Positions 7,042 to 56,927 of a stretch of 64,000 nt of DNA are shown here, one piece after another. Numbering within the stretch: position 1 is the stretch's first letter; each line of letters begins with the position of its first letter. The notes below the pieces were generated by a model, which worked only from the letters and a program-made list of their open reading frames with translations, was not told the origin of the DNA and ran no database searches. A program made the translations under genes and the position numbers. The DNA comes from Streptomyces sp. NBC_01775 (lineage in GTDB: Bacteria > Actinomycetota > Actinomycetes > Streptomycetales > Streptomycetaceae). The stretch is from the NCBI RefSeq assembly GCF_035917675.1, contig NZ_CP109105.1, positions 1-64,000 on the forward strand, in the 5' to 3' direction.

Positions 7042-7907
7042 GACCGTGTCCTATGTGGTGAGGCGGATGAGTCGTTTGTAGCAGCACAGGGCGGCTGCGA
7101 GGCCGAGGAAGGCCAGGTAGTTGCCCGGGTCGCATTCGTAGCGGTGGTTGAGGCGTCGGTAGCCGGTCAGCCATGACATGGCGCGTTCAATGACCCATCC
7201 GCGGCGCCCTAACCGCTCGCTGGACTCGATGCCTTTGCGGGCGATGCGGACGCCGATGCGCTTGCCGCGCAGCCATCTGCGCAGGTCTGGCCGGTCGTAG
7301 GCTTTGTCGGCGTGCAGCCGCTGAGGTTTGAAGTACCGGCCTCGATCAGGGTCGTGTCTCGTTTGGTGACCGGCCACCATCGGCTTCAGCCCTTCGCTGT
7401 CGTGGACGTTGGCGGCGGAGACGCCGACGAGGAGGGGCAGTCCGTTCGCGTCCGACAGAACGTGCATCTTCGAACCCGGCTTGCCCCGGTCCACAGGCGA
7501 CGGGCCTGTGTGTTCGCCCCCTTTTTCGCCCTCACGTGGGCGGAGTCGAGAACGACACGGGTGACGTCGATGAGGCCGGCGTCATCGAGCCGGTGCAGCA
7601 CAGTCTCATGTAGCCGGCCCCAGACGCCCGCTCTCGACCAGATCACGAACCGACGATGGGCCGTCGACTTCGATATCCCGAAGCACGGCGGCAACGACCG
7701 CCAGGCACAGCCACTGACCAGTACATAGACGATCGCCGCGAACACCGTCTCATCAGGCGTGTCCTGCGTCCCGCCACCCTGCGGCCGGACTCTCGACGCC
7801 GGGATCAGCGGCTTCGCGACCTCCCACAACCCGTCCGGAACAATCCAACTCCACGTTCCCCGCCCCATACACAGACCAACGTCCGCCTCACCACATAGGA
7901 CACGGTC
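7042..7907 (-). mobile_element. IS5-family (IS427-like) insertion sequence, complete
   Basis: About 866 bases long with perfect terminal inverted repeats of at least 20 bases: GACCGTGTCCTATGTGGTGA from 7042, and the complement ending at 7907. Both ends are flanked by TTA (7039-7041 and 7908-7910), the short T-N-A target duplication typical of this group, so the element moved here as a unit. It carries one transposase in two overlapping frames. The right flank is the remainder of a DUF6349-like gene. Confidence 0.9.
7051..7868 (-). CDS. IS5-family transposase, made by -1 frameshift
   Basis: Two overlapping frames (7868-7386 and 7494-7051) encode one DDE transposase. The first holds the helix-turn-helix and first catalytic Asp (VVLDSAHVRAKKG); the second holds the Asp in ADKAYDRPDLRRW and the Glu in VIERAMSWLTGYRRL. 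The overlap contains AAAAAGGGGG (minus strand, about 7526-7517), a slippery run; a -1 slip there joins the halves as KKGGEHTGPSPVDRGKPGSK, the usual family sequence. Programmed slippage is common in this IS group, so this is probably functional and not a mutation. Confidence 0.88.
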
Positions 7908-7910
7908 TTA

Positions 7911-8230
7911 CTCGCCGCACCAGCGACGACGCCGAGGAGTACCGCGGGGCCTGCCTCGCCTGCACCTGGGAGGACGAGGAGCGCACCGGTCGCACCGCAG
8001 ACCGCGCCGCCGTCGAGGACACCCACGACCACGCGTTTCCCGGGTGGCGCACCCTCCTGCCCCTGCTCGGTCCCGCCGGCCAGGAAAGCGCCCGCGTATG
8101 GGCCCTCGTCCGCGCCCTCTACCCGCCCCGCTGGCTCGACGCCGGAGCCCCCCAGCTCGTGCGCCGTGCCACCGCCAGCCCGCGCTACCGGCTCCACATG
8201 CCCCCACCCGCCCGCACCCGCCCCCCCGTT
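7911..8230 (+). pseudogene. DUF6349-like remnant, cut by the IS
   Basis: Right of the IS5-type element the frame reads EEYRGACLACTWEDEERTGR, then DTHDHAFPGWRTLLPL and ALYPPRWLDAGAPQLVRRAT. The C-x2-C pair, the 'EDxHDHxxPGWR' segment and the 'LYPxxW' end match the C-terminal half of DUF6349 proteins of Streptomyces. The N-terminal half is missing. The frame stays open into the next gene at 8354, so a joined product is possible in principle. Confidence 0.55.
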
Positions 8231-8353
8231 CCCGAGTCCACCTGCCCTCTTCTGAACGCTTTCGCCGGGGCGCGCTCCCAGGCTCGCTGCCCATCAGCGG
8301 CGGGCTGCGCCACGGCGCCGGGGCGGCCCGTCCCGTCACGACCGGAGGACTAC

Positions 8354-9205
8354 ATGCCTGTCTATCTGCCTGAACCGGACCGCCCCGACCACGGGGGGAA
8401 CCGGCTTTCCCTGAACGCACACGTGGGCCGTCCTCGCGACCAGTGCGGGCTGCTCCCGACCAAGTACGTCACGCTGTACGAGAGCATGACCGGCCGTCAG
8501 CGGTGGGGCGGGTACGGGCGGTGCACGATGGAAGGTGCCTGTTCTTCCTGCCCGGTCCAGCGAGAGCACTTGCAGGGAGCCGAACTGGAGTGGCCGCGGG
8601 GGACCCCCGTCCTGCGGGCCCGCTCCGTCCCCCTCCAGCCGGACCCGAGGCATGTCTTCAGCGACCCGGCGGCCGGACACGAACGACTGTTCCTGACACC
8701 CCTGTGGGGTGCTGAACCAGTCATTGTCTCTTTTCGCGAGGTGCGCAACGCTCCTGGGGTCTCGATGGGCCGGGCCTTCGACGAGGGGGAGGCGACCGGC
8801 TTCTGGCTTCTACGTGACCGCCCGGACGCGGAGCAAGCCGCCGTCCATACCAAGGAGTTCGCCTCGCCCACCCGGCACGCCCTGTATGCGCGGCGCGGAG
8901 GCCCGCGCAGCGCCCTGGTCTCCTGCTCGGGCGGCTGCGTGCACGGCTCCATGGCTCTGGCCCGTCTGGCGCTCGACCTCACGGCGCCCGAGCCTCCCGC
9001 GAAGGTACCCGCCCCGCCGGCCTTTCTGCCAGGCGCGCCCGGGGTGTCGACGCAGCACCGATCCGCACGCGAGACCACCGTCACCCGGCACGGCAGCAGC
9101 ATGCGGGTTTCCTGGGCCAAGCCGCGGACCTGGGCCACCGAGGCGGCGCTGACCGCGTTCGTCCTCCGCCTGGTCCTGTATGTGCCCCCGGTACAGGAGG
9201 TGTGA
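8354..9205 (+). CDS. Hypothetical protein with Cys cluster (283 aa)
   Basis: Not recognised. The start is set by GGAGG five bases before the ATG; the frame is open upstream because of the DUF6349 remnant. The N-terminal part has a C-x5-C-x2-C cluster (CTMEGACSSCPV) that could bind metal, and a second small Cys group lies near residue 195-200 (SCSGGCVHGSMALARL). The C-terminus is basic and then hydrophobic. It directly precedes the promoter of the modification cluster, whose -35 overlaps its stop codon, so it may be a neighbour and not a member. Confidence 0.72.
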   Translation: MPVYLPEPDRPDHGGNRLSLNAHVGRPRDQCGLLPTKYVTLYESMTGRQRWGGYGRCTMEGACSSCPVQREHLQGAELEWPRGTPVLRARSVPLQPDPRHVFSDPAAGHERLFLTPLWGAEPVIVSFREVRNAPGVSMGRAFDEGEATGFWLLRDRPDAEQAAVHTKEFASPTRHALYARRGGPRSALVSCSGGCVHGSMALARLALDLTAPEPPAKVPAPPAFLPGAPGVSTQHRSARETTVTRHGSSMRVSWAKPRTWATEAALTAFVLRLVLYVPPVQEV

Positions 9206-9230
9206 CACAACAACCCGCATAGGGTAGAAT
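9202..9230 (+). promoter_or_regulatory. Promoter of the modification cluster
   Basis: GTGACA (9202-9207), a 17-base spacer and TAGAAT (9225-9230) form a housekeeping-type promoter. The -10 region and the following TACTCTCGTCGA are closely repeated before the gene at 14224, suggesting a shared regulator. The -10 sits in an imperfect dyad (GGGTA with TACTC). Confidence 0.62.
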
Positions 9231-9294
9231 TACTCTCGTCGATCTGGCGGCAACCGGACCGACGCCCCAACCCAGCACGTAAGGAAGCAGCTTC

Positions 9295-10284
9295 ATGCAC
9301 GCCAAGCACACCCATTGGACGGTCTCCTACCGCCACCGCTCCGGCGGCACGAAGGTGACCAGCACCAGTCTGAGCACCCCCGATGCCACCCGTCAGCAGT
9401 ACGCCTTTCACAGCGGCCTCGACTGGAACACCGATGTGCGGATCACTGAGCAAGTCATCCGCGAGACCCGCCGCCTGATCTGCCTGTCCGAGCTGCCCGG
9501 CCCCGGCCAGCCAACCCCCGTTCCACAGCTCCCGGACGGCGCCCACGAGGTGAAGCGCCACTACCGGTTCGCCCGCAACGGCCCGGCCGTTCTGCCCACC
9601 GGGGACGACGTCCGCAACCACCACGAGTGGCTGACCAACCATCGCGACGTGGACCCCGCTGAGCTCCGGGCCGTCGAGGTGACCCTGACTCGATACCGCC
9701 GGGAGGTCGCCCTGGACGAACTGCCCGACCTCGCGCCTCCCTCCCGGCCCGAACCGGGAGAGCGCACGGCCTACCTCGCCGCCCGCCTCCCCGTCACCCG
9801 CCGCAACTTGGAATCGGCCGCCATCGCCGTCGGCACCATCGCCACCGAAGGATGGGAGCCCGAGGAGGGCTACGGCTACCCCGGGGAGGGCAAGCACTGG
9901 AAGCTGAAGTGCCTGCTGGAGTGCCAGGGCCCCGGAACCGTATGGGTCGGGGTGCGCTTCTACTCCCACCTGCGCCGCAGGCGTCCCCTGCTCCGGCACG
10001 AGGGGTGCCTGCCCCGGAAGGAGCACGCCGAGCGGATCTCCGCGCTCGCCCGGAATCTCTCGCCCGTGTGCCCGTGCCCGGCGGTCAGCCACCCGACGAC
10101 CCCGGGCGATGTGGACGCTCTGATCACCCGTCTCCTGGACCACGACCGACGTCAGGACGAGCAGGCCAGGTACGTCGTGCGGAGTGAAGTGGCGCGGCTC
10201 ATCGAGCCCTGCCCCGCCGCCCCGGCCCGCGCGACGGCAATCCGCGCGCTTCAGGAGATCCGAGGCCGCGCCCCGCAGAACTAA
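9295..10284 (+). CDS. Hypothetical protein, first gene of modification cluster (329 aa)
   Basis: Not recognised. The N-terminal 45 residues look like a small beta-strand unit (WTVSYRHRSGGTKVTSTSLS), followed by an acidic mixed region and a central segment with Gly and Trp (EGWEPEEGYGYPGEGKHWKL) leading into LLECQGPGTVWVGVRFYSHL. The last third holds a CPCP pair and a helical tail. AAGGAAG lies six bases before the ATG and a promoter 65 bases upstream. It is first in the run that leads to the DpdA-like and Mom-like genes; a role in recognising or preparing the substrate is only a guess. Confidence 0.75.
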   Translation: MHAKHTHWTVSYRHRSGGTKVTSTSLSTPDATRQQYAFHSGLDWNTDVRITEQVIRETRRLICLSELPGPGQPTPVPQLPDGAHEVKRHYRFARNGPAVLPTGDDVRNHHEWLTNHRDVDPAELRAVEVTLTRYRREVALDELPDLAPPSRPEPGERTAYLAARLPVTRRNLESAAIAVGTIATEGWEPEEGYGYPGEGKHWKLKCLLECQGPGTVWVGVRFYSHLRRRRPLLRHEGCLPRKEHAERISALARNLSPVCPCPAVSHPTTPGDVDALITRLLDHDRRQDEQARYVVRSEVARLIEPCPAAPARATAIRALQEIRGRAPQN

Positions 10285-10290
10285 GCACCA

Positions 10291-10323
10291 CCCCCGGGGG
10301 GCGGCCTGCCGCCCCCCCGGGGG
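10291..10323 (+). terminator. GC-rich hairpin between genes
   Basis: A run of C and G (CCCCCGGGGGGCGGC, two bases, GCCG and C7G5) can fold into a stem of about 15 pairs with one bulge, just after the stop codon at 10284. There is no T run. It could be an attenuating terminator or an mRNA-stabilising end. Confidence 0.42.
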
Positions 10324-10369
10324 TCCGCTCCACCTTCCTACCCGTCCGCGCCAGAAAGCGAGACCGAAG

Positions 10370-10846
10370 ATGCCCGAGCCGAACGCCCTGCCGTTCTTCG
10401 CCCAGCTCCGTGACCAGCTCGCCCGCGTCGCCCTGCCGCTGTCCGCCGAGGAATGGCGCCTGAACCCCGGCGGAGGTTTGCTCTCCCAGGGGCCCCTGGC
10501 CACCGGCGCCGAGGCCGAGCGCGTACCCGACGCCACCTGGACGCACACCGACTTCCAGATCTACGACCGCCACGCGCTCATCGCCAGTCTCCCCGTCCCG
10601 CACAGCCCGACCGACGTCGACTCCCCGAAGGAGGCCGCCGAGGCGGTCACCGACTCACGTGCGGCCGTCGCCGCCCTGGTCGCCGCCCCCGACGCCCTGA
10701 AGACGCTGCTCGACGCCGGACTGCCCGAGCTGCTGCACGCTGCCGCCCAGTGGGACCGCGCGAACCACGCCACAGACCACGACCGCGAGACGGCCGCCGT
10801 ACAGCTCGCACGACGGCTCGCCCGCTTCGGCGAAGCCCTCGGCTGA
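10370..10846 (+). CDS. Hypothetical protein in modification cluster (158 aa)
   Basis: Not recognised. A small acidic, Ala-rich, helical protein: an N-terminal part ending in WTHTDFQIYDRHALIASLPV and a C-terminal helical bundle-like part (ELLHAAAQWDRANHATDHDR). The ATG at 10370 follows a purine-rich AGAAAGCGAGA; the frame is open to 10184 but that would overlap the previous gene. It sits between two hairpins in the run of co-oriented genes leading to the DpdA-like gene, so co-expression is likely. Confidence 0.72.
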   Translation: MPEPNALPFFAQLRDQLARVALPLSAEEWRLNPGGGLLSQGPLATGAEAERVPDATWTHTDFQIYDRHALIASLPVPHSPTDVDSPKEAAEAVTDSRAAVAALVAAPDALKTLLDAGLPELLHAAAQWDRANHATDHDRETAAVQLARRLARFGEALG

Positions 10847-10871
10847 ACCACGCGCCACCGCACCACCCGCA

Positions 10872-10899
10872 CCGGCCCCGGACGGCAATCCGGGGCCGG
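10872..10899 (+). terminator. Repeated intergenic hairpin, copy 1
   Basis: CCGGCCCCGGA and TCCGGGGCCGG enclose the loop CGGCAA. The same stem and loop recur at 11784-11809, two intergenic gaps of the same cluster. No T run follows. Confidence 0.5.
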
Positions 10900-10928
10900 C
10901 CCCAACCCTGCTGAACCACAGGACTCCC

Positions 10929-11723
10929 GTGCGCCATCTCCCGCCCCCGCGCTTCTACCTGGGCACGCACCAGCCAAGCTGGCTCCCCCACGTCGCGCAC
11001 CCGTTGTTCGTCTCCTACTCCCGCATCAGGAACCGGCGCCGCCTCGACCGCATCCGCGCACTCGGCCCGTGGGCTTTGGATTCCGGAGCCTTTTCGCAGC
11101 TCGACCGCCACGGCGAATGGACCATCCCGGCAGCCGAGTACGCAGCATCCATCACCAGGTACCACCACGAGATCGGCGGTCTGGAGTGGGCAGCGCCCCA
11201 GGACTGGCCCTGCGAACCACCGGTCACCGCAAAGACGGGACTGACGGTCGAGGAGCACCAGCGCCGCACCGTCGACTCCGTTCTGCAGCTGCGTGCGCTG
11301 GTACCGGCCGTGCGCGTCATCCCGGTCCTCCAGGGGTGGACTCTCGCTTCCTACATGCGGTGCGCCCAGATGTACGCCGACGCAGGGGTCGACCTGGCGG
11401 CCGAGCCCCTCGTGGGCGTCGGGAGCATGTGCCGGCGCCAAAGCTCCATCACCGCAACGGTCATGCTGGACCAGCTGGTCAACCTCAACGGGCCAGAGGC
11501 GCCCCCGCTGCGGCTGCACGCGTTCGGATTCAAGCTCCGCGGCCTGACCCTGGCCACCGGCACCCTCACTTCTGCGGACTCCATGGCCTGGAGCTACGCC
11601 GGTCGGAACGAGCCCGGATGCGGCCCGAGCCACCAGAGCGAGGCTAACTGCCTGCCCTACGCGCTGCGCTGGGGCCAGGACCTCATCGACCAGCTCGCGG
11701 ACGCACACGCAACCCGCCGCTGA
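10929..11723 (+). CDS. DpdA-like TGT-fold protein (DNA deazaguanine transglycosylase candidate)
   Basis: A 264-residue relative of tRNA-guanine transglycosylase of the kind found in actinophages and in 7-deazaguanine DNA-modification systems (DpdA family). Visible landmarks are ALDSGAFSQL (D51, at the position of the DSGGFQ motif of TGT), PVLQGWTLASYMRCAQMY (Q135), the strand-loop EPLVGVGSMCRR (C168), a GFK turn near 202 and SADSMAWSYAGR near 215. It is shorter than bacterial TGT and lacks an obvious zinc domain, as expected for DNA-directed relatives. The inferred reaction is exchange of guanine for a deazaguanine base in DNA. Neighbours are a Mom-like gene and a PP-loop gene. GTG start after AGGA. 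A tRNA substrate cannot be excluded. Confidence 0.82.
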   Translation: MRHLPPPRFYLGTHQPSWLPHVAHPLFVSYSRIRNRRRLDRIRALGPWALDSGAFSQLDRHGEWTIPAAEYAASITRYHHEIGGLEWAAPQDWPCEPPVTAKTGLTVEEHQRRTVDSVLQLRALVPAVRVIPVLQGWTLASYMRCAQMYADAGVDLAAEPLVGVGSMCRRQSSITATVMLDQLVNLNGPEAPPLRLHAFGFKLRGLTLATGTLTSADSMAWSYAGRNEPGCGPSHQSEANCLPYALRWGQDLIDQLADAHATRR

Positions 11724-11783
11724 ACCACCGCCGCAACCCGGAGCGCCCGCCCGCGGAGCCTCCCTTTCTGAACCACAACCCGT

Positions 11784-11809
11784 CGGCCCCGGACGGCAAT
11801 CCGGGGCCG
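11784..11809 (+). terminator. Repeated intergenic hairpin, copy 2
   Basis: CGGCCCCGGA and TCCGGGGCCG around CGGCAA, the same as copy 1 at 10872. It is followed at once by a second perfect palindrome, GGGGCCGATCGGCCCC. It lies between the DpdA-like and Mom-like genes. Confidence 0.5.
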
Positions 11810-11840
11810 ATCGGCCCCAACCCGACCCCCTGGAGGATCC

Positions 11841-12725
11841 ATGTCTTCCGCCCATCAGCTTCCCCTTGGTGATCCTGCGGAGTTCTGCCAGCGCTGGCGG
11901 TACCGACGCCACAGCTGGCTGCGCAGGCGCGAGGGCGGCTTCGACCAGTCCAGCTATCAGGCCAGGATGCTGGATCACGACGTCGCACGGCGCTTCGTGG
12001 CCGAGCACCACTACAGCCGCTCCTGGCCCGCCGTACGGCTGGCCGTCGGCCTGTACGCCACCGACCCGCGGGCCGGGCGTGAGGGCCTGGTCGGCGTGCT
12101 CGCCCTTGGCGTCCCCATGCACCCGGCGGTCCTCACCGGCCCGTTCCCGAATCTCGTCCCGTACCGGGAGAGCCTGGAGCTGTCCCGGCTGGTGCTCCTG
12201 GACCAGGTGCCCGCAAACGGCGAGAGCTGGTTCGTCGCCCACGCCTTCCGCCTGGCCGCGCAGCGGGGAATCCGGGGCATTGTGGCGCACTCCGATCCTC
12301 AGCCCCGCGTCCGGCAGACCCCCAACGGGCCTGAAGATCTCCACCCTGGGCACGTGGGCACGACGTACCAAGCCAGCTCCATGGACTATCTCGGCCGCAC
12401 CCGCAGGCGCCGCCTGACAGTGCTCCCGGACGCCACCGTTCTCCCGGACCGGGCACAGTCGAAGATCCGCGCCGACGAAGCCGGACACCTCGGAGCGGAG
12501 CGCAGACTGGTCGCATTCGGCGCCCGGCCCCGCCGCACGGACGAGGACGGGGCCCGCTGGCTGGCCGAGGCGCTCGAACAGGTCGGCGCGACGGTACTGG
12601 ACCACCACGGCAACCACCGCTACGCCCGGTATATCGGGCCGACGCGAAGGCACGGCCGCAGCCACTCCATCGCTGTCACCGCCTATCCCTTCCCGAAAAA
12701 AAACGAGCCCGGGGGTTCGCGGTGA
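11841..12725 (+). CDS. Mom-like DNA adenine modification protein
   Basis: A 294-residue protein of the Mom-like family seen in actinobacteria and their phages, distantly related to phage Mu Mom, a GNAT-fold enzyme that makes N6-(carbamoylmethyl)adenine in DNA. Landmarks: RYRRHSWLRRREGGFD near the start, AEHHYSRSWPAVRLAVGLY (H57, Y58, S59), the strand LVGVLALGVPMHPAVLTGPF, ESLELSRLVLLD, NGESWFVAHAFRLAAQRG, GHVGTTYQASSMDYLGR and GNHRYARYIG near the end. The ATG follows GGAGG. Its stop overlaps the GTG of the PP-loop gene, so the two are coupled. Near the end is a run of eight A. Which base is modified is inferred from the family only. Confidence 0.78.
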   Translation: MSSAHQLPLGDPAEFCQRWRYRRHSWLRRREGGFDQSSYQARMLDHDVARRFVAEHHYSRSWPAVRLAVGLYATDPRAGREGLVGVLALGVPMHPAVLTGPFPNLVPYRESLELSRLVLLDQVPANGESWFVAHAFRLAAQRGIRGIVAHSDPQPRVRQTPNGPEDLHPGHVGTTYQASSMDYLGRTRRRRLTVLPDATVLPDRAQSKIRADEAGHLGAERRLVAFGARPRRTDEDGARWLAEALEQVGATVLDHHGNHRYARYIGPTRRHGRSHSIAVTAYPFPKKNEPGGSR

Positions 12726-14002
12726 GGCGCGGCCGGAAGACGCTGATCTCCTGGGGCATGGGCGGCGATTCCACCGCTGCGATCACGCGGCTGTGCGCCG
12801 ACCCCACGGCCTACGGCCTGGCCAGCGACATGTCCGATGTGATCGTCGTGGTCGCGATGACCGGGGACGAGTGGGAAATCACGATGGACCTGGCCGAGCG
12901 GCACATCCTGCCGGTGATGCGCCGGCACCGGATCCGGCTGGTCCAAGTCGCGCGGGGCGGTGCACTGGAGGAGGACGGTGTCCGCGTGCTCTCGGACACC
13001 CGTTTCCCCCGTCGGCTGTGGCGCCGAGGTGACCGTGCGCTGTCCGACGAACTCGCCGAGACGGGCACGGTGCCCCAGTACGCCGCCGGTGAGCGTCGGT
13101 GCTCGCTGAAATACAAGGGGTGGGTGATCGACACGTGGGCGCGGGCCGAGCTCGGTGACCGCTCCTACCGCCACCTGATCGGGTACGAGGCGAGCACGCG
13201 GGAGCGGGGCCGGGCCGCGCGGTACGACAGCTTCGCGCACGAGCGGGAGGAGACCTGGTATCCGCTGATCGAATGGGGCTGGGAGCGCAGCCGTGTGCTG
13301 CAGTACCTGGAGGAGGTCTACGGCGTCGCCAACTGGCCCAAGAGCTACTGCGTGCAGTGCCCGTTCCCCGCGGTGGCCGCTTCCAGGGAGGAGCACCTCC
13401 GGCGGTGCCGTGACTATCCCCAGGAAGCGGTGAAGGCGCTGCGGCTGGAGTACACCGCCCGGGCGCTCAATCCCCGCTCCACCCTCTACAGCCGGGGGAC
13501 CACGCTGATCGGTCTGCTCCGTGACGACGGCAACACAGCAGCCCTCGACGTCTTCGGCAGGCTGCTGGACCAGTGCACCTGGTCGGTGTACGCGGTGCGC
13601 CGGGTCTATATGCCCGGCCGGGACTGCCGCCACCGGCATGGGAAGGGATGCACGCGAGTGACGTGCCTGAGTCCGCTGGTGAAGGGACAGGCATGGCGTT
13701 CGGTCCGCTGCGAGTTCACCGGGTCCCGCGCGGAAGCCCTGTCCTGGCTGCGCAGTGAGGCCGCCGAGATGGGCTCCCCGGTCGTGACTGCCGGCGGCAT
13801 CAGCCGGGCGTCATTCCATGAGCTCGGTGAGGAGTACCCGGCCGCCGAAGGGTTCCTCGTGGCTGCTCCGGCAGGGGTCGACAACAAGGAGCGTCCCGGG
13901 TTCTGGGAGCGGTGGGAGCAGGTGACGAGCGGGCTTTGGAAGCCGCTGGCGGCCAGGAAGGCGGGGAGAATGCAGAAGAAGAAGTTGACGACCCGCTCAT
14001 AG
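12722..14002 (+). CDS. PP-loop ATPase (PAPS reductase/DndC-like)
   Basis: A 426-residue protein with an N-terminal PP-loop, ISWGMGGDSTAAI (S10-S17), the ATP-pyrophosphatase motif of PAPS reductases, QueC and DndC. Downstream are EVYGVANWPKSYCVQCPFPA with a C-x2-C pair (C210, C213), a further Cys near residue 126 (GERRCSLKYK) and a CRHRHGKGCTRVTC group near 300, together able to hold a metal or Fe-S site. Such enzymes adenylate a carboxyl, carbonyl or sulfur substrate. Here it could activate a group for the Mom-like or DpdA-like product. GTG start overlaps the previous stop (GTGA). Whether the chemistry adds N, S or another group cannot be read from the sequence. Confidence 0.82.
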   Translation: MRRGRKTLISWGMGGDSTAAITRLCADPTAYGLASDMSDVIVVVAMTGDEWEITMDLAERHILPVMRRHRIRLVQVARGGALEEDGVRVLSDTRFPRRLWRRGDRALSDELAETGTVPQYAAGERRCSLKYKGWVIDTWARAELGDRSYRHLIGYEASTRERGRAARYDSFAHEREETWYPLIEWGWERSRVLQYLEEVYGVANWPKSYCVQCPFPAVAASREEHLRRCRDYPQEAVKALRLEYTARALNPRSTLYSRGTTLIGLLRDDGNTAALDVFGRLLDQCTWSVYAVRRVYMPGRDCRHRHGKGCTRVTCLSPLVKGQAWRSVRCEFTGSRAEALSWLRSEAAEMGSPVVTAGGISRASFHELGEEYPAAEGFLVAAPAGVDNKERPGFWERWEQVTSGLWKPLAARKAGRMQKKKLTTRS

Positions 14003-14014
14003 CGAGGGCATAAT
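13985..14014 (+). promoter_or_regulatory. Promoter of the 14224 regulator gene
   Basis: TTGACG (13985-13990), 18 bases, CATAAT (14009-14014). The -10 is centred in a dyad, GAGGG-CATAATTA-CCCTC (14004-14021), a likely operator. The block through CTCGTCGA matches the promoter at 9225. Confidence 0.65.
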
Positions 14015-14016
14015 TA

Positions 14017-14223
14017 CCCTCGTCGAATTTGCGGGGAGGTGATGGCCGGCGGGAAACACCTCCGAAAGGTGTCGGCCCAGGGCGGCAACCCCGACCGAAC
14101 GTCCCACCGGCCATCTGGTCCCAACCCAAGCAAACCAAGAAGGAAGCCAAGGAACCGCCTCCAGTTTACGGGGTCCCTGGCACCGCACTACCGCGTCACT
14201 CACCAGATCGGGAGATCACAGAC
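14017..14223 (+). promoter_or_regulatory. Long leader with competing hairpins
   Basis: About 200 untranslated bases separate the promoter from the ATG at 14224. GGAGGTG near 14035 can pair with CACCTCC near 14057, and the same CACCT can instead pair with AGGTG just after it, so two folds compete. A 76-codon frame begins at the GGAGG-linked ATG near 14042 and ends inside the regulator gene. Blocks GGCAACC...GACCGA and CCCAACCCA-GCA also occur in the leader before 9295. Confidence 0.4.
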
Positions 14224-14952
14224 ATGGCCAGCACCCCGCAGACCCGGACCCATGAAGGCCGCACCGTCGTGAATCGCGCCTGGATGGCGCAGCGTGCCGG
14301 AGTCAGTGAGGACACCGTCAAGTACTGGTACCGCAGCGCCCGGAAGGAGAGCGTCGGGCCGACGCCGCCGCCGGTCGGGCCGACGATCGACCGGGTCGGC
14401 TACTACGATCAGCTCGACTTCGAGAAATACCTGGAGGACCGGGAGGCCGCGAAGCGGGCCACGGTGACGCCCACCGATCCGGCCCTGTACGAAGGTGACC
14501 CCGACGACCTGGTCGACATCAACACCGCAGCGCGCTTGTTCCACTACACAGACGCGTCGGTGATCCGTGGCTACCGACGTCTGCACCCCGGATACTTCCC
14601 GGAGCCCGCCGGAACCGAAGAGGGCCCCAGCGGCAAGCAGATCCCCGCCTTCCGCCGTGGGGACCTCATCGACTTCGACCGAGGCCGTGACGGGGACAAC
14701 ACCGGGGCCGCCGGTCGGCCCGCCGGTACGCCCAGCGCCACCGCAGGACAGCGCTGGCCCGTGACAGAGCACCGCATCGACGTCGCCCACCAGTACATGA
14801 TCGACCTGGGCGGCTGGAAGCACGGCACCGCAGCCGAACTCGCCCGTCGTGCGGGCGAGCCCGCCAAGTCCTGGGAGCGCGCGGTCAAGGAAGCCCGCCG
14901 CAGGATCGAGCAGCAGAACAACGAGGACCAGCCGCCGTCGGAGAAGGAGTGA
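14224..14952 (+). CDS. Helix-turn-helix DNA-binding protein (242 aa)
   Basis: Two helix-turn-helix units are visible: VVNRAWMAQRAGVSEDTVKY near residues 16-35 and VDINTAARLFHYTDASVIRG near 98-117, each followed by a wing-like turn. A third, HGTAAELARRAGEPAKSWER, lies near 200. The protein resembles the multi-HTH accessory protein at 699 in plan. The ATG at 14224 follows GGGAGAT; the frame is open further up but overlaps the leader. Because this gene and the modification cluster share promoter and operator sequence, it is a candidate regulator of both, including itself. Confidence 0.75.
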   Translation: MASTPQTRTHEGRTVVNRAWMAQRAGVSEDTVKYWYRSARKESVGPTPPPVGPTIDRVGYYDQLDFEKYLEDREAAKRATVTPTDPALYEGDPDDLVDINTAARLFHYTDASVIRGYRRLHPGYFPEPAGTEEGPSGKQIPAFRRGDLIDFDRGRDGDNTGAAGRPAGTPSATAGQRWPVTEHRIDVAHQYMIDLGGWKHGTAAELARRAGEPAKSWERAVKEARRRIEQQNNEDQPPSEKE

Positions 14953-15247
14953 ACAGCGTGCCGGTGACCAAGCTGGTCGAGGAGATCCTGACCGTGATCG
15001 AGGGCGCCACCCCTGAGGAGCCGGTCTGGCTCCAGACGATCTACGACGGGACCGGGCGCGGGCCCGCGTCCGTCGATCCGGCCCCGCCGGGTGGGTGGAG
15101 GCGTACTGGGAGACACCGGAACCAGCCGGCCGTCCCCGCCGCCGCTACTACCGGCTGACCGAACAGGGCGACCAGAGTCTGCGCAGGGTCCGTCAGCCCC
15201 AGTCGCGCCCGTGGTGGCGGTTCAGGACCGGTCCCGCGGCGTCGTAG
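14949..15247 (+). pseudogene. PadR-like winged-helix protein, disrupted
   Basis: The first 40 codons read TKLVEEILTVIEGATPEEPV then WLQTIYDGTGRGPASVDPA, and a second frame continues WVEAYWETPEPAGRPRRRYY then RLTEQGDQSLRRVRQPQ to a stop at 15245-15247. Together they form a PadR-type winged helix, but about eight residues expected between SVDPA and GWVEAY are missing and the frame changes there. A small deletion is the simplest explanation. ATGA-type overlap with the previous gene shows it belonged to the same operon. Confidence 0.6.
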
Positions 15248-15270
15248 GGCGACGTGAAAACGAAGGCCAG

Positions 15271-15316
15271 CAGGTCGTCGCCGCTTACCACCCGCGTGGT
15301 AAGCGGCGACGACCTG
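15271..15316. repeat. 46-base palindrome with GGTAAGC half-sites
   Basis: Two perfect 21-base arms (CAGGTCGTCGCCGCTTACCA plus C, and complement) flank a 4-base centre CCGC. Each arm contains the GCTTACCAC unit that is repeated before the secretion operon (19930-20050). A further GGTAAGC follows at 15364-15370, and TGTGACGGCATCG at 15318-15330 recurs at 20009-20021. Likely an operator or replication site for the gene at 15456. Confidence 0.8.
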
Positions 15317-15455
15317 TTGTGACGGCATCGAGACCGCGAACGGGTGGCCGTGGCGAGCGGCACGGTAAGCGGCGGGGGGTTCGGTCGGGTGAGCGCTGAA
15401 CCGCGCTCTTCCGACCCCGCATTCCCGCGGGATACCGAGAGGGACCCGGATCCTG

Positions 15456-16355
15456 ATGCCCGTTGCTTCCACTTCCCCGCGCCCGCGCACGTCGGGCACG
15501 CCGATGCGCGAGCAGCTTCTCGCCTTCCTCTGCCAGCACCGTGCCGCCGACACGGCGCAGCTGCACCGCATGCTCTACCTCCGGCCCCGGCCCCGGACGG
15601 ACCACATGCGGCGCTGTCTGCGCCAGCTCCAGGAGCAGGGGCTGGTGGAGGCGGCCGTCCGTGCCCATCACCCGTCGGTGTGGGCACTCTCCGACGCCGG
15701 CCGCGCCCTGACCTCCGGCTGGACACATCTGTCCGCGCAACCGCCGCGCCGCGGATCAGGGCTGGCCAGCCAGCGCACCGTGCACACCCTGACCGTCACC
15801 CGCACCTGCCTGGCCTTCCTGGACGACGCGCGCGGACGCGGAGACGAGTTCACACCGCTGGACTGGCGGCCGGAGACGGCGCACCCGCTGCGTGACGGCG
15901 CCGCAGGCGGCGAGCGGACGCTGATCGCGGACGCGCTGATGCGCTACACCCGTACCGGCCAGGCCCGGGGACTGCTGCGGGCCTTCGTTGAGGTCGACCG
16001 GGCGACCGAATCACCGGAACGGCTGGCCGCGAAGGCCATCAGCTATGCGCGGTTCTACCACTCCCGGCCCGCCCCCCGCCGCGGTGCGCAGCCTTCGGGG
16101 ATGTCGTGGCAGCAGACCTATCCCCGCTTCCCCCGTGTGCTGTTCGTGCTCAGCAACGCCGGTGCGCGCGCCCAGGCCCAGCGCATCGCGGATCTTCAGG
16201 CGATGGTGCGCCAGCACCCGCTTGTCGCGTCCCTGGCCGCAGAGGTCGCGCTCGGCGTGGGTGTGCTGGAGGACCTGGAGGAGCTGGGCGCGTCCGCGCC
16301 GGTGTGGACGCCGCTGACCGGATCCGGTGAGCGGCGGAACTGGATGGACCTGTGA
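15456..16355 (+). CDS. Replication-relaxation family protein
   Basis: A 299-residue protein of the replication-relaxation (PF13814) type found on actinobacterial plasmids and integrative elements. An N-terminal winged helix (REQLLAFLCQHRAADTAQLH, then MRRCLRQLQEQGLVEAA and SVWALSDAGRALT) is followed by RTVHTLTVTRTCLAFLDDAR, a core with TLIADALMRYTRTG and AFVEVDRATESPERLAAKAI, and a conserved-looking FPRVLFVLS strand. The family is thought to act in plasmid replication or transfer initiation; its exact activity is not known. The start follows GGGACCCGGATCCTG without a strong binding site. A strong terminator-like hairpin follows. Confidence 0.83.
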   Translation: MPVASTSPRPRTSGTPMREQLLAFLCQHRAADTAQLHRMLYLRPRPRTDHMRRCLRQLQEQGLVEAAVRAHHPSVWALSDAGRALTSGWTHLSAQPPRRGSGLASQRTVHTLTVTRTCLAFLDDARGRGDEFTPLDWRPETAHPLRDGAAGGERTLIADALMRYTRTGQARGLLRAFVEVDRATESPERLAAKAISYARFYHSRPAPRRGAQPSGMSWQQTYPRFPRVLFVLSNAGARAQAQRIADLQAMVRQHPLVASLAAEVALGVGVLEDLEELGASAPVWTPLTGSGERRNWMDL

Positions 16356-16369
16356 CGCCCTGACTTCGC

Positions 16370-16403
16370 CGTCGGTGCCGGGATGGCCCTCCCGGCACCG
16401 ACG
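16370..16403 (+). terminator. Strong hairpin after the replication-relaxation gene
   Basis: CGTCGGTGCCGGG and its exact complement form a 13-pair stem with the 8-base loop ATGGCCCT, 15 bases after the stop codon. It makes a start for the next gene inside it (ATG 16383) unlikely. Confidence 0.72.
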
Positions 16404-16490
16404 AGGCGCCGCCCGACGGCGGCCGTACTTCTTCCTCTTCCACCAGGCGGTCCGCCTCTTGCATGCGCGGAGCACCGCCGGCTCGGAGCG

Positions 16491-17837
16491 ATGATGCCCT
16501 ACGTCCAGGCTGAGAGCCAAGGCTCGATCTGCCCCGCCCCTGTGTCCGCTGCCGCCCCGGCGCGGTTCGAGTTGGTCCGTGACCCGGCGGCACAGGAGGT
16601 GAGTACGACAGCCTCCCGCCGCCTGCGGCGAGGGGAGGATCTGCGCGCAGCCGCACGGTGGATGACTGAGCGCGGGTTCCACCCGGAAGCCGGGCCCGGC
16701 ACGGTGCGCACCGCCGACGACTTCGCCGACCGGATGGGCGCGAGCAGCCAGGGGCATGTGGCCTACGGGCTGCAGCAGATGACCGTCCGGCTGGGCCGCT
16801 CGCGCAGCTGGGTCACCGCCCAGGTTCGCATCCTGCGGGAGCTGGGACTGCTGGCCTGGGTGGAGCACGGCTCGGCCTGGCGGAACGCGCTGCGCACCCG
16901 CTACGGGGAGAACTTCCGGCCCGGCATGGGGTTCGCGAAAACGGCGACGCTCTATGCCCCCTGCGCGCCGCGCGTGTGGGACGAGGCCCATGGACGCCGG
17001 GTGGGCGGGTCCGGGTACACGGCGCGGGTGATCGGGGTGACCGAGCACGGCCGGCGTCTGGCGGTGGAAGAAGCACGGGCCCGTGTGCCCCGCCAGTCCC
17101 GCTGGACCCCTTCTTTTACCCCCGCCCCCACTCACCCCAAGGTGCAGGAGGAGGGAAAGAAGAACTACACGGGGGACATACGGCGGGACAGCGTCGTACG
17201 GCCGAGCGGACGCACCCCCCGTCAAGCGGCGGCCGACGTGGAAATCGCACGCTGGGTCCGCCCCCGGGTCGGCTGGGTGCAGCGCGCCGGGCTGCGGCAG
17301 CTGGCGTTCGGGCTGCGCCCGCTGATCGACAGCGGGCTCGACGGCGAGGACATCGCCGCAACGCTGAGCACCTGGTCCTGGGGATGGGGCGAGTGGCGGC
17401 CCCAGCGCCCGGCCGCCTACATCCTGGCGCGCGCCGCCGGGTACCAGCAGCCCGGGCCGGGCACGGAAGCACAGTTCGCCGCGCAGACCGGAGCGGCCTG
17501 CGTCCGCGGACCGCAGTCACCGTCGGCACGGGCAGCGTGGGAGCTCGCGGTGCGTACCGTCCGGGAGCGGGCCTCCCACCCGGAGCAGGAGCAGCAGGCA
17601 CTGCCCGTCGCGCTGCTCGGGTTCCCGCACAGCGAGCGGCAGTGGCGGAACCAGGAGGAGCAGCAGATCCGGGACGTGATCCTGGCTTCGCTGGAAGAGG
17701 CCGCAGCCGCCTCCCGGGCGCGGCGCCGGGCCGGGAAGGACTTCGGGTGCTGGCTGGCCGAGGTCGAGCGGGAGGAGTTCGGTTCCTGGCGGCGGTCCGG
17801 GACTTCGGGATCGCGGGTGGGGCTCGCGGGGGCGTAG
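16491..17837 (+). CDS. Winged-helix protein, candidate replication initiator (448 aa)
   Basis: The paired ATGs at 16491/16494 are preceded by CGGAG; an earlier ATG lies in the terminator loop. Residues 50-130 contain a winged helix (MTVRLGRSRSWVTAQVRIL then RELGLLAWVEHGSAWR), and a second DNA-binding-like block lies around 255-330 (RRPRVGW-type basic region, LSTWSWGWGEWRPQRPAAYI). The C-terminus is basic and Arg-rich. Its place beside a replication-relaxation gene and GGTAAG repeats fits a plasmid Rep or partner, but no Rep motif was recognised with certainty. GGTAAGT and GGTAAGC sites lie downstream (18075, 18108). Confidence 0.7.
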   Translation: MMPYVQAESQGSICPAPVSAAAPARFELVRDPAAQEVSTTASRRLRRGEDLRAAARWMTERGFHPEAGPGTVRTADDFADRMGASSQGHVAYGLQQMTVRLGRSRSWVTAQVRILRELGLLAWVEHGSAWRNALRTRYGENFRPGMGFAKTATLYAPCAPRVWDEAHGRRVGGSGYTARVIGVTEHGRRLAVEEARARVPRQSRWTPSFTPAPTHPKVQEEGKKNYTGDIRRDSVVRPSGRTPRQAAADVEIARWVRPRVGWVQRAGLRQLAFGLRPLIDSGLDGEDIAATLSTWSWGWGEWRPQRPAAYILARAAGYQQPGPGTEAQFAAQTGAACVRGPQSPSARAAWELAVRTVRERASHPEQEQQALPVALLGFPHSERQWRNQEEQQIRDVILASLEEAAAASRARRRAGKDFGCWLAEVEREEFGSWRRSGTSGSRVGLAGA

Positions 17838-18257
17838 GTGGATACGCCTCTTGCGCAGAGGCGGCACTGAGTGCGGCCAGCTCCGGGGTGCTGTTCATGA
17901 AGATCCGCTCCCAGCGCGAGCCCCTTCCATAGGCCGACCTGGGATGGCCGCCCCCGGCGGCCGGAGTGGCTACACGGTCCGCGTCGACGCGGACGGTCAA
18001 GCAGCTCCTCCGTGTCATACAACCCGCGTCCACAGGCGTCTGATCCGGCGCCCCCGGCGCCCGTCCGAGCTCGCGGTAAGTGCGAGTACGGGATGCTGAC
18101 CTGCGCTGGTAAGCCGGATGTCGCCCGTGACGATGTGGTGAGTGCGGTCGCTCACCGGGGCGGGATCCTGCAAAGGACCAACTACGGCGCCGTTGCATCC
18201 GAGCGGTGATCCCGCAGCCAGTCGACCAGTTGCGAACCGCAAGCGATAACGAGTTGC
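17838..18257. other. Intergenic region with two GGTAAG sites
   Basis: No gene is supported. GGTAAGT (18075) and GGTAAGC (18108-18114) resemble the half-sites of the arrays at 15271 and 19930. A 65-codon frame from GTG 18012 lacks a binding site and is not called. Confidence 0.45.
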
Positions 18258-18629
18258 CTAGACCCATCCCTCGTCGAGGTAGATCGTCCAGGTGTCTCTC
18301 ACTGCCCTGTTCAGTTCAACCAAGGACGCAACGTTCGCGATGACGGCCGGCGCGTCGGAGAGCCGCAACGGCGAGTCCGGGACCCCGTGCCGGGTGTAGG
18401 TCGGCAACTCGCCGCTACAGCCAAAGCCGTGGAGCGGGAGGGGACCACGGTTGAACCATGCGGGGCGGTGTTCCTCGGCCCACGCGGCTGCGGCGTCGAC
18501 GCGGTCCATATGCGCCAGCAGGTGCTCAGGGGCGGGCCCGCCGCTGAACTGCACGAGGAAGCCCTCGGCGTCGACGGCCCACCAGTCCCATGTGAACCCA
18601 GGTCGAGGATGCCGCAGGATCGTCGCCAT
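18258..18629 (-). CDS. Hypothetical protein (123 aa)
   Basis: Not recognised. The protein is tryptophan-rich near its start (FTWDWWAVDAEGFLVQFSGG) and has a central EHRPAWFNRGPLPLHGFGC segment, ending in TWTIYLDEGWV. It looks like a small soluble cytoplasmic protein. ATG 18629 follows a weak GGTGG; a start nine codons earlier is possible. It runs opposite to its neighbours and the IS481-type element is inserted about 60 bases upstream, possibly separating it from its promoter. Confidence 0.58.
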   Translation of the reverse strand: MATILRHPRPGFTWDWWAVDAEGFLVQFSGGPAPEHLLAHMDRVDAAAAWAEEHRPAWFNRGPLPLHGFGCSGELPTYTRHGVPDSPLRLSDAPAVIANVASLVELNRAVRDTWTIYLDEGWV

Positions 18630-18690
18630 GCCGCCACCGTATCTGGGCCGGAACAAGGCTGGTGAAGATGCCCGCAGGAAACGGCCTAGG

Positions 18691-19766
18691 TGTGTTGTCC
18701 CGGGACGTTGGTGACGGGTGACACGCCCGTGGTGGGTGCTTGAACGAGGTGAGGGCCTTCTGGCTCGGTGTGGATTGCGACATCTACCGCCGAGTGCAGG
18801 AGGCCCTCGTGATCCACCGTAACGCCCCGTTGACGCCGACCGGTCGGCTGCGTCTGGCCAGGTGTGTCGTCGAGGACGGCTGGCCGGTACGCAGGGCGGC
18901 CGAGCGCTTCCAGGTCAGCCACACCACCGCCGCCCGCTGGGCCGGCCGCTACCGCCGGCACGGCGAGACGGGCATGTACGACCGCTCCAGCCGCCCTGCC
19001 CGCTGCCCCTGGCAGACACCGCCTCATAAGGAGGCCCGCGTGCTTCGGATGCGGCGCGAGCACCGGATCGGCCCGCTGCGCCTGGCCGCACGGACCGGCG
19101 TCGCCGCCTCCACCGCCCACCGCATCCTCCAACGTCACGACTCGCCCGCCCTGGCCGTCCTCGACCGGGCCACCGGTGAACCCGTCCGCCGCTACGAGCG
19201 CTCCCGCCCCGGCGAGCTGATCCACGTCGACGTCAAGAAACTCGGCCGCATCCCCGACGGCGGCGGCCACAAAGTCCTCGGCCGGGCCGCGGGCAGCCCG
19301 AACAAGGACCGTCGCCACGGCATGGGATACGCCTACCTCCACACCGCGCTCGATGACCACTCCCGCCTGGCCTACACCGAAGACCTGCCCGACGAGACGG
19401 CCCCGACTTGCGCGGACTTCCTCCAACGGGCCACGGCATGGTTCGCCCGACAAGGCGTCACCGTCGAACGTGTCCTGACCGACAACGCCTGGGCCTACAC
19501 CAAGAACACCTGGCGCCAGACCTGCCACGAGCTGGGCATCTCTCCCCGCTGGACGCGACCATGGCGCCCACAGACCAACGGCAAGGTCGAACGCTTCCAC
19601 CGCACCCTGCTCGACGAATGGGCCTACCACCAGCCCTATACCTCAGACGCCCAGCGACAGGCAGCCTTCCCCGACTGGCTGGACTGGTACAACTACCACC
19701 GACCCCACACCGGAATCAGCGGCCACACCCCAGCCAGCCGCATCACCAACCTCCCCGAACAACACA
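18691..19766 (+). mobile_element. IS481-family insertion sequence, complete
   Basis: The element is 1076 bases, with imperfect terminal inverted repeats of about 25 bases starting TGTGTTGT on the left and ending ACAACACA on the right. Both sides carry CCTAGG (18685-18690, 19767-19772), a 6-base duplication that fits the NCTAGN target of IS481. The perfect duplication suggests recent insertion. It separates the presumed replication region from the secretion operon. Confidence 0.92.
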
Positions 19767-19771
19767 CCTAG
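18809..19771 (+). CDS. IS481-family transposase
   Basis: A 320-residue DDE transposase. GTG 18809 is chosen because AGGAGG lies nine bases before it; an earlier start lacks this. Helix-turn-helix units (VVEDGWPVRRAAERFQVSHT, RYRRHGETGMYDRSSRP) precede the rve-like core with LIHVDVKKLGRIPDGGGHK, YLHTALDDHSRLAYTE and VERVLTDNAWAYTKNT, then RPWRPQTNGKVERFHRTLLD and YNYHRPHTGISGHTPASR. The frame is intact. The last codon and the TAG stop lie in the CCTAGG target duplication, outside the IS body, so the target supplies the stop. Confidence 0.93.
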   Translation: MIHRNAPLTPTGRLRLARCVVEDGWPVRRAAERFQVSHTTAARWAGRYRRHGETGMYDRSSRPARCPWQTPPHKEARVLRMRREHRIGPLRLAARTGVAASTAHRILQRHDSPALAVLDRATGEPVRRYERSRPGELIHVDVKKLGRIPDGGGHKVLGRAAGSPNKDRRHGMGYAYLHTALDDHSRLAYTEDLPDETAPTCADFLQRATAWFARQGVTVERVLTDNAWAYTKNTWRQTCHELGISPRWTRPWRPQTNGKVERFHRTLLDEWAYHQPYTSDAQRQAAFPDWLDWYNYHRPHTGISGHTPASRITNLPEQHT

Positions 19772-19929: not shown

Positions 19930-20050
19930 GCTTACCACGGGGCCCGGGCGGCTTACCACGCGCCGGTGGTACTTACCACGCCGCTTACCCCGGGTTTTGT
20001 GATGTGCCTGTGACGGCATCGGGGTGCTGGTGGTAAGCGGGGCGGTAAGC
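19930..20050. repeat. Array of GCTTACC/GGTAAGC half-sites before the secretion operon
   Basis: Six copies: GCTTACCAC at 19930 and 19951, ACTTACCAC at 19971, GCTTACC at 19983, and the inverse GGTAAGC at 20032 and 20044. The 13-mer TGTGACGGCATCG (20009-20021) sits between the two orientations, as it does beside the palindrome at 15271. The array ends 52 bases before the first secretion gene. It is either an operator cluster for a transfer regulator or an iteron set; the sequence does not decide. Confidence 0.65.
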
Positions 20051-20102
20051 GGCCGGGCGAATTCTGTGGGCATCGAAACCGCCTCTTCCACCAGGAGCAC
20101 AG

Positions 20103-21113
20103 ATGCCCACTCCCTTCCGGCGCCGGGAGCGCGATCCGGGGTCCGCTGAACCACCCGCGCAGTCCGTGCGGCCGGTGCGCTACCGCTCGGTGATGCTGTC
20201 TCAGTTGGCGGTGTATGCCGCGCTGGCCGCCGGCCCCGTCGCGCTGCTGGTGTCTTGCGCAGCCGACTCGGCCCCGGTGCGCAGCGCGCCGAAGGCCGCT
20301 GCGCAAAGCACGGTGCGCAGCGCGCCGGATCCGGGCGGCTACGCGGCGCTTTTCGTCGATTGCTGGTTGCGCAGTGCAGGTCAGGAGGGGGATCGCAGCC
20401 GAGCGCTGGAGTCGATGGCGCCCGGGGTGCGGATGCCGGAATGGGGCGACGAGGCCCCCCGGGTGGAGCGGGTCGGCGCGGTGCGCAGTCAGCCGGTGGG
20501 CGCGGGTGGGTGGTCGGTGACGGTCGCCGTGCAGACCTCTTCCCCGGAGCCGCGGTACTTCTCGGTGCCGGTGCGCAGTCAGCAGGCGGGCGGAGGTGCG
20601 CGGTTCACCGTATCGGCGGCCCCGGCGGAAGTGTCCGCCCCGAAGGCCGCGAAGCAGGCGCCGGACCCCTACAGCAAGAGCGTCAATGCCTCTTCTCCTC
20701 TGGCGGGCACGGTCGAGGACTTCCTGTCCTCTTACGTGGGCGGGTCCGGAGGCGCGGAGCGGTATCTGGCGCCGGGGGTGTCGCTGCCCGCGGTCGCCCC
20801 GTCCCCGTATGAGGAGGTGCGGGTGGAGTCGGTCACCGCCGCCTCGGGTGACGGTGAGGGCCGGGTCGGCAAGGACGGGGAGCGCGTCCGGGTGCGCGCC
20901 ATGGTGACGGCGCGGGATGCGGACGGCGGGACGTGGCCGCTGGCGTACGCGCTGCGGCTGGTGGCGCGGGACGGCCGGTGGGAGGTCGGCGCGCTGGAGA
21001 GCGGGCTGGAGCATTCCTCCGGCAAGGGTGCGCAGGCCGCTGCGCAGTCTTCGGGTGTGGTGCGCAAAGCCGCCGCGGTCACGTCCCCCGGTGCGATGCG
21101 GACGGGGTGGTGA
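20103..21113 (+). CDS. VirB8/TcpC-like conjugation protein
   Basis: A 336-residue protein with a 30-residue cytoplasmic lead, one membrane segment (about 31-51, MLSQLAVYAALAAGPVALLV) and two similar extracytoplasmic domains: one from GGYAALFVDCWLRSAGQEGD and one from VEDFLSSYVGGSGGAERYLA. This tandem NTF2-like plan is that of TcpC, the VirB8-type structural component of Gram-positive conjugation channels. CAGGAGCACAG precedes the ATG. It is the first gene of an operon that runs with overlapping stops and starts to 31994, and the repeat array upstream probably controls it. Confidence 0.78.
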   Translation: MPTPFRRRERDPGSAEPPAQSVRPVRYRSVMLSQLAVYAALAAGPVALLVSCAADSAPVRSAPKAAAQSTVRSAPDPGGYAALFVDCWLRSAGQEGDRSRALESMAPGVRMPEWGDEAPRVERVGAVRSQPVGAGGWSVTVAVQTSSPEPRYFSVPVRSQQAGGGARFTVSAAPAEVSAPKAAKQAPDPYSKSVNASSPLAGTVEDFLSSYVGGSGGAERYLAPGVSLPAVAPSPYEEVRVESVTAASGDGEGRVGKDGERVRVRAMVTARDADGGTWPLAYALRLVARDGRWEVGALESGLEHSSGKGAQAAAQSSGVVRKAAAVTSPGAMRTGW

Positions 21114-21454
21114 ACCCCATGCAGGAGTATGTGCAGTTGGCCGGAGAGTTCGAGGACATCGGCGATCACCTGCTGGGCATGGGCACCGGTTGGGCCGAGG
21201 CCACGCTGAAGCTCGCGCTGCTCGTCGTGGTCGTCTACCAGATCTTCAAGAGGTTCAGCCTCAAGGCCGGGATCGGGGCCCTGCTGGGCCTGGTGATCTG
21301 CCTGTCGATCTACAACTCCCGCGAGGACCTGTCCGACGCCTTCAGCACAGAGCTGAACGGCGCGGACTCCCCCAGCACGGTCCAGGTCGAGACCCCCCGA
21401 TCGGCAACAGCGCCGGGCTCCGTGGCTGAGCCCGTGGCGGGGAGGACGGCGTGA
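21110..21454 (+). CDS. Small two-segment membrane protein of the secretion operon
   Basis: 114 residues, GTG start overlapping the previous stop (GTGA). Membrane segments at about 31-46 (ATLKLALLVVVVYQIF) and 51-68 (LKAGIGALLGLVICLSIY), then a short hydrophilic tail with SPSTVQVETP. The size, place between VirB8-like and PrgI-like genes, and topology fit a VirB2/pilin-like or TrbC-like small channel component. No family was recognised with certainty. Confidence 0.72.
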   Translation: MNPMQEYVQLAGEFEDIGDHLLGMGTGWAEATLKLALLVVVVYQIFKRFSLKAGIGALLGLVICLSIYNSREDLSDAFSTELNGADSPSTVQVETPRSATAPGSVAEPVAGRTA

Positions 21455-55897: not shown

Positions 55898-55904
55898 CTG
55901 CGAG

Positions 55905-56870: not shown

Positions 56871-56927
56871 CACCACGCCTCTGCACCAGCACCCCTCGCA
56901 CGTACACACCATCATTGGGAGACCGTC

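Follow-up and report, generated by a model that had tools for sequence, protein, structure and literature searches.

DNA hypermodification is known chiefly from phages, the DpdA systems described so far work with preQ0 and related bases, and the donor chemistry of Mom, the modification protein of phage Mu, is little understood. Here, we describe genes for a DpdA-family transglycosylase, a Mom-like transferase and a PP-loop protein that follow one another in the first 64 kb (the window) of the smaller contig (C2) of the two-contig 9.34-Mb genome of Streptomyces sp. NBC_01775. This recurring cassette on a conjugative-type Streptomyces plasmid is real and probably modifies DNA; protection from restriction is its likeliest use, and there is a live chance that its chemistry is new. 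What is new is the recurrence of DpdA, Mom and PP-loop genes in a fixed order. No description of the combination was found in the open-licence literature, as judged from titles and abstract openings among the matches listed.

The DpdA-only mycobacteriophages of the genus Pegunavirus carry the same DpdA family, with the protein of phage Freya 47% identical to the window protein over 93% of the latter. As in the window set, no preQ0 genes are annotated, here within 9 kb of the phage DpdA; unlike in the window, no Mom or PP-loop partner is annotated beside DpdA in the three phages looked at. Phages 9g, CAjan and Rosebush exchange a base in DNA through DpdA, and PMC6884629 reports that this protects against restriction enzymes. 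These phages encode FolE, QueD, QueE and QueC (or Gat-QueC), whereas QueC and QueE were not found in the plasmid or host studied here. For the bacterial Dpd island (DpdB, DpdC and restriction genes), a PADLOC scan of the five proteins encoded at our locus was empty, the neighbours being judged by annotation only.

The Mom of phage Mu shares with the window protein the Pfam Mom family, the H/Y/R/Y residues and a C-terminal PK motif (Protein Data Bank (PDB) entry 8bv8), but the sequence similarity is weak (E 0.017) and the window Mom stands beside DpdA and a PP-loop enzyme. A pairing of TGT-like and GNAT-type proteins, predicted to mark DNA, is described in PMC12839542 for BREX-related capture (BRC) loci. 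BRC carries PglZ, DUF6079, HerA and DUF4007, whereas none of these is annotated beside the set in a near-identical plasmid and DUF4007 was not found in the window. The Dnd and Ssp systems (DndC, SspD) have in common with our locus a PP-loop enzyme of PAPS-reductase type with conserved cysteines, but the window has no DUF4007 match, no DndD- or DndE-like gene is annotated nearby, and the partners here are Mom and DpdA. PAPS-reductase-like and Mom-like genes are reported as accessory genes of other mobile elements, Charybdis elements (PMC12324425) and Clostridium clostridioforme prophages (PMC11318856); the passages on them mention no transglycosylase and describe no linked order or overlap. PMC11541004 reports that orphan methyltransferases, among other anti-defence genes, are found in the leading regions of plasmids; its main text contains none of the words DpdA, transglycosylase and PAPS.

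The DpdA-Mom-PP core and its plasmid

The window contains five open reading frames on the plus strand, g1, g2 and those for DpdA, Mom and the PP-loop protein, as a sequence-only reading of this DNA had stated. That reading had also assigned the last three to families and noted a four-base overlap between the last two, and profile searches and the sequence itself bear it out on these points. DpdA (10929-11723, 264 amino acids) matches PF23859 (9.3e-73, 245 bits, cut-off 27), whereas the Pfam TGT model does not detect it. Residues D51, D92 and D217, which we take from their roles in the TGT fold to be candidate catalytic aspartates, are present in 28 of 28 chosen relatives, the window protein included. 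The Mom-like protein (11841-12725, 294 amino acids), a predicted acyl- or carbamoyl-type transferase, matches PF25680 (1.4e-19, 71 bits, cut-off 27.1). Its residues H57, Y58, R116, D152 and Y176 occur in 25 of 25 chosen relatives, again counting the window, in a set that omits the partial proteins of loci L010 and L125. They match H48, Y49, R101, D139 and Y149 of Mu Mom, which are presumably important there; the pairing of D152 with D139 was set by inspection, the HMMER alignment being gapped at that place.

The PP-loop protein (12722-14002, 426 amino acids), whose start overlaps the mom stop codon in the four bases GTGA at 12722-12725, belongs to the PAPS-reductase superfamily: it matches phrog_424, "PAPS reductase" (1.2e-12), and has both the SxGxGxDS loop and the PP-loop fold. 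No Pfam family matches it at E 0.1, hence neither PF01507 nor QueC, and three of its relatives match none at 0.01. Pfam QueC and TGT were rejected as identities for the set, for which there are no such Pfam matches. In an AlphaFold2 model (pLDDT 92.4), residues 1-233 align with PP-loop reductases and thiolases, and residues 234-426 are scarcely covered by fold matches. A search of a viral fold library with the PP-loop protein gave no match under E 0.001, and a sequence search of PDB with the PP profile gave marginal rows only. The protein and its relatives have exactly three near-invariant cysteines in the order C...CxxC (C127 in 34 of 35 sequences, C210 and C213 in 35 of 35 each). We take this order and spacing to be closer to APS reductase than to the [4Fe-4S] sulfurtransferases NcsA and TtuA.

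Streptomyces sp. NBC_01186 has a linear plasmid of 267 kb, NZ_CP108586.1, that shares 99.1% identity with positions 7906-18690 of the window and 100% identity over 10370-14000; all five proteins are annotated as hypothetical there. Downstream of the set and on the same strand lie a gene for a replication-relaxation protein (15456-16355) and conjugation-type genes, with matches in frames 20049-21110 and 21357-24710 (the latter VirB4-like), which are annotated in NZ_CP108586.1 too. In relatives, genes like those of the set adjoin DNA methyltransferases and conjugation genes. The annotation of NZ_CP108586.1, which leaves many proteins hypothetical, names no nuclease or restriction partner across 24 kb about the set; in the first 7.9 kb of the window, which differ from that plasmid, only three proteins were scanned, one of which is a transposase.

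Recurrence and co-location

A PP-loop profile scan of one genome per species gave 64 named loci. The order DpdA-Mom-PP is found in the window and in S. canus (L100), Streptomyces sp. MNU76 (L106), GESEQ-4 (L107) and S. megasporus (L124), of which L100 and L106 are close kin (88-94% identity). Mom and PP occur together with no DpdA directly before them in three cases: Actinokineospora (L098), a genus of another family; S. mexicanus (L125), with both genes partial; and a plasmid of S. anthocyanicus (L010). In all eight Mom-PP loci checked, the mom stop overlaps the PP start as NTGA (ATGA or GTGA). A four-base overlap also joins dpdA and mom as annotated in L004 and L012, and by chosen start in L011, L058 and L124; the starts of unannotated genes were chosen by us, and the annotated mom start of L011 lies later than the overlap start used. 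In the window, the dpdA-mom gap is 117 bases.

Across 392 genomes of the genus, DpdA passed the cut-off in 40, and Mom was found in 33 (many of them fragments) and PP in 29, in a scan that scored the best candidates per genome (five or six for DpdA and Mom, four for PP, seven for QueC), so that places may be missed. Over all listed rows, the genes lay within 6 kb of each other in 8 of the 11 genomes that have both DpdA and Mom, 5 of 9 for DpdA and PP, and 5 of 10 for Mom and PP, every near pair being on one strand; chance placement of both genes on a single 300-kb replicon would give about 0.4 per pair. Four of the eight genomes with a near DpdA-Mom pair (G025, G203, G370 and G371) match only part of Mom, and the Mom row in G203 is weak. 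At least 13 of 59 plasmid records with DpdA also hold Mom (60 of the 98 Mom records being listed).

Distances of DpdA and Mom agree closely (Mantel r 0.91, P 1e-4, 10 loci; 0.86 without a near-duplicate), and those of Mom and PP agree less firmly (r 0.80, P 0.02, 6 loci). In the DpdA tree, the Mom-linked rows cluster, with 4 label changes compared to 12.8 when labels are shuffled. Mom-linkage in the PP tree needs 3 changes compared to 6.7, and therefore arose, or was lost, more than once.

Two observations concern individual loci. The DpdA-PP pair of L062 (G069) lies about 20 kb from both chromosome ends, probably in terminal inverted repeats. On the plasmids of L004, L011 and L003, DpdA (and Mom) is preceded, 0.4-9 kb upstream, by genes for DUF4007 (SspB/BrxA-like) and an N6-methylase.

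The supply of a base to DpdA

The sequence-only reading had noted that queuosine-pathway genes are absent from the stretch, and this extends to the strain's own genome, in which nothing matched QueC, QueE, QueF, TGT or the YhhQ-family model Vut_1 at E 0.001. In a control, each queuosine-pathway or Vut_1 model matched in 8 to 14 of 14 genomes; QueE passed the cut-off in only 1. A lone QueD-like (PTPS) gene lies in the chromosome (G000:C1:4312895-4313251), with no QueE or QueC match in the genome. Genuine QueC (E < 1e-20) occurs in 46 of 382 genomes of the genus, including 8 of the 40 with DpdA. None of the 10 genomes with a Mom- or PP-linked DpdA is among these 46 as listed (G371 being absent from the listing); about 1.2 would be expected, and the difference is not significant.

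Other DpdA genes have a transporter as neighbor. A YhhQ-like (Vut_1) gene adjoins DpdA in 6 of the 7 genus genomes that have both and stands just before it in those six, with DpdA being one match in four of them and split into two in the other two. An Embleya plasmid and a Nocardia plasmid each have a transporter, annotated "queuosine salvage", beside DpdA. Of 504 viral DpdA loci, the 80 best were examined for neighbors: Vut_1 lies upstream on the same strand within 6 kb in 18, and Mom occurs in 2, one of them a weak match beside a transporter. The gene stands just upstream of DpdA in L030, L027, L041, L008 and L009, and in viral L141, L144, L146 and others. Judged by gene content, the transporter-DpdA arrangement appears to be a salvage-fed DpdA. 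Hutinet et al. 2019 (PMC6884629) state that some phages encode YhhQ. They also report that the DNA of Mycobacterium phage Orion, which has DpdA only and grows in a host lacking the pathway, contains no detectable 7-deazaguanine. Orion is a Pegunavirus, the genus to which Freya belongs. Given this result and the lack of a detected preQ0 source, the window DpdA would therefore either await a scavenged base or use something else. The linked PP-loop enzyme would be the obvious candidate for supplying it.

Partners and relatives of the core genes

Within 8 kb of PP, the 64 loci have a second PAPS-reductase-like protein of a PP-loop family other than that of the window PP (PAPS2) in 25 cases, a C5-methyltransferase in 12, an N6-methylase in 8, DUF4007 in 8, Mom in 6 and DpdA in 5. 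With a single PP protein as query, no viral contigs were found; with the PP alignment, 14 viral loci were. DpdA, Mom and PAPS2 stand together on two viral contigs, L220 and L225, so that the combination of DpdA, Mom and a PP-loop enzyme is seen with two PP-loop families.

The closest relatives of the window DpdA are those of L003 (about 60% identity) and L124 (about 55%), and the closest relatives of the window Mom are those of L125, L106, L107 and L100. The window PP pairs with its S. tropicalis counterpart (L075), which lies on a 6.7-kb contig where Mom was not detected; in G293, which has a PP contig of the same size as that of L075, Mom lies on another small contig. Taken together, DpdA, Mom, PP and their partners look like a set of exchangeable parts.

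PAPS2 is the commonest neighbor of PP, and a C5-methyltransferase is often near too, for example in L092, L093, L097, L099, L112 and L124. This combination is possibly a separate modification module of plasmids or phages.

Interpretation

We consider it fairly probable that the DpdA-Mom-PP core is a DNA-modification cassette of conjugative actinobacterial plasmids, likely hiding the DNA of the element from restriction enzymes; pairs of its genes are also found on chromosomes and on contigs classed as viral. The basis is computed: family membership, conserved candidate active-site residues, recurrent order, translational overlap and non-random co-location. DNA modification, the role suggested by the sequence-only reading, is supported as a likely one. 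Its proposal that the genes protect rather than restrict, made when no nuclease partner had been seen, is favored by context, and we regard the cassette as probably anti-restriction. In the proposed mechanism, DpdA would swap guanine for another purine-like base, imported or obtained by some other route, and Mom would place an acyl- or carbamoyl-type group on an exocyclic amine, which on the model of phage Mu would be N6 of adenine. The PP-loop protein would use ATP to adenylate a substrate; it would also transfer sulfur or activate the group or base used by DpdA and Mom, perhaps by means of a [4Fe-4S] site with three cysteines.

Several points weigh against this interpretation. The chemistry of the cassette is a matter of inference only, and Foldseek gives the PP model low TM-scores (0.30/0.41 for NcsA). 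No source of preQ0, by synthesis or YhhQ import, was found in the host, and Orion DNA lacks detectable 7-deazaguanine in a phage genus whose Freya DpdA is 47% identical to that of the window. Within 8 kb of PP there is no Mom in 58 of 64 loci and no DpdA in 59 of 64 (some contigs being shorter), and among the best 80 viral loci with DpdA, 78 lack Mom within 6 kb. DpdA, Mom and PP are therefore not obligate partners. Since the window DpdA and Mom have different nearest relatives and the window PP lies apart from other Mom-linked PP proteins (forcing the three label changes in the PP tree), the window copy has been reshuffled.

One alternative is that three independent DNA modifiers or anti-restriction genes have gathered in one cargo region, where DpdA would modify guanine, Mom adenine, and PP would add sulfur or do nothing. 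The points on non-obligate partnership and reshuffling speak for it: the three families each occur alone more often than together, their partners shuffle (DpdA with the transporter, PP with PAPS2 and the C5-methyltransferase), the nearest relatives of the window genes differ, and PMC12324425 and PMC11318856 place PAPS-reductase-like and Mom-like accessory genes in other mobile elements. We nonetheless find this unlikely in view of the repeated linkage in the same order, the 4-bp overlap seen at every one of the 8 Mom-PP loci checked and the stable DpdA-Mom pairs. It is less likely still that DpdA is idle or conditional, a salvage enzyme needing preQ0-type bases from another cell, with otherwise only Mom (and PP) active. 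The empty search for QueC, QueE, QueF, TGT and YhhQ would fit such a DpdA, as would the Orion result (PMC6884629) and the YhhQ-like neighbor in 6 of 7 genomes, two plasmids and 18 of the best 80 viral loci, but the candidate catalytic residues are kept in Mom-linked copies of DpdA too. Salvage would also need another route, because no transporter was found in the strain's own genome. An RNA or protein target, by comparison with the QueC-like Cap9 and QatC of anti-phage systems, for which deazaguanylation of partner proteins has been proposed, seems very improbable: DpdA scores on a DNA-type family and is missed by the Pfam TGT model, the characterized relative of Mom acts on DNA, and PP has no Pfam QueC match.

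The modification cassette that we favor has a bolder form, in which it makes a new DNA base. Here, DpdA would insert a purine from outside the preQ0 pathway; PP, as a three-cysteine [4Fe-4S] thiolase-like protein, would either make that base, which could be an analogue of guanine with sulfur in it, or thiolate it in place; and Mom would cap an amine. We put this form forward tentatively and regard it as rather unlikely. If it is true, a conjugative plasmid carries a transglycosylase-based hypermodification of DNA in which the cassette itself, and not QueC or YhhQ, supplies DpdA. More broadly, if the cassette modifies DNA, plasmids too use DNA hypermodification, probably against restriction. 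The analysis also provides named loci for asking what DpdA-only systems insert into DNA, and Mom gains a linked enzyme, PP, that could make or activate its donor.

Other features of the locus

The genes upstream of the core are not part of it. The sequence-only reading had treated all five genes as one operon and had proposed a search for the five-gene set elsewhere; such a unit is rejected, and it is the DpdA-Mom-PP core that recurs, in four Streptomyces loci. On the plus strand, g1 (9295-10284) encodes 329 amino acids and g2 (10370-10846) encodes 158 from an ATG, with a longer GTG frame opening at 10184. Neither has a family at E 0.1 in Pfam, PHROGs, NCBIfam or PADLOC. Relatives of g1 occur in 17 plasmid records, with just one covering at least 80%, so that it recurs only in part, and g2 was found in a single other plasmid record, that of the near-identical plasmid. 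A predicted structure of g1 (from 4 sequences only, pLDDT 54) had no match under E 0.001 in PDB. The N-terminal part of g1, about 145 amino acids, recurs near some Mom-PP or PP loci, with homologues 1.7-3 kb after PP in L100, L106 and L125.

A sigma-70-like promoter pattern at 9202-9230 on the plus strand, upstream of g1, scores 10 of 12; there are 2 such sites in 8.5 kb compared to a mean of 0.3 in shuffles. The single promoter of the sequence-only reading is thus present as a pattern match, and is joined by a second promoter-like site at 13985-14014 on the same strand, at the end of the PP gene, because of which the next gene may start its own unit. The element AGGGNANAATTACNCTCGTC (AGGG...CTCGTC) has copies only at 9221-9240 and 14005-14024, two matches in 64 kb where 0.02 are expected. 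These copies overlap both promoter-like sites around the set, and the pair could perhaps be a shared operator. Two identical 26-nt palindromes, one upstream of dpdA (10873-10898) and one in the dpdA-mom gap (11784-11809), flank dpdA, with no further copy in the window.

Each end of the host chromosome has, about 11 kb inward, a C-terminal fragment of Mom (G000:C1:11341-11556 and 9050036-9050251), as if in terminal repeats. Although NZ_CP108586.1 is otherwise near-identical, its bases 1-66000 contain no match to window positions 18690-19767 and 54636-59661; the first of these stretches contains a gene for an IS481-type transposase.

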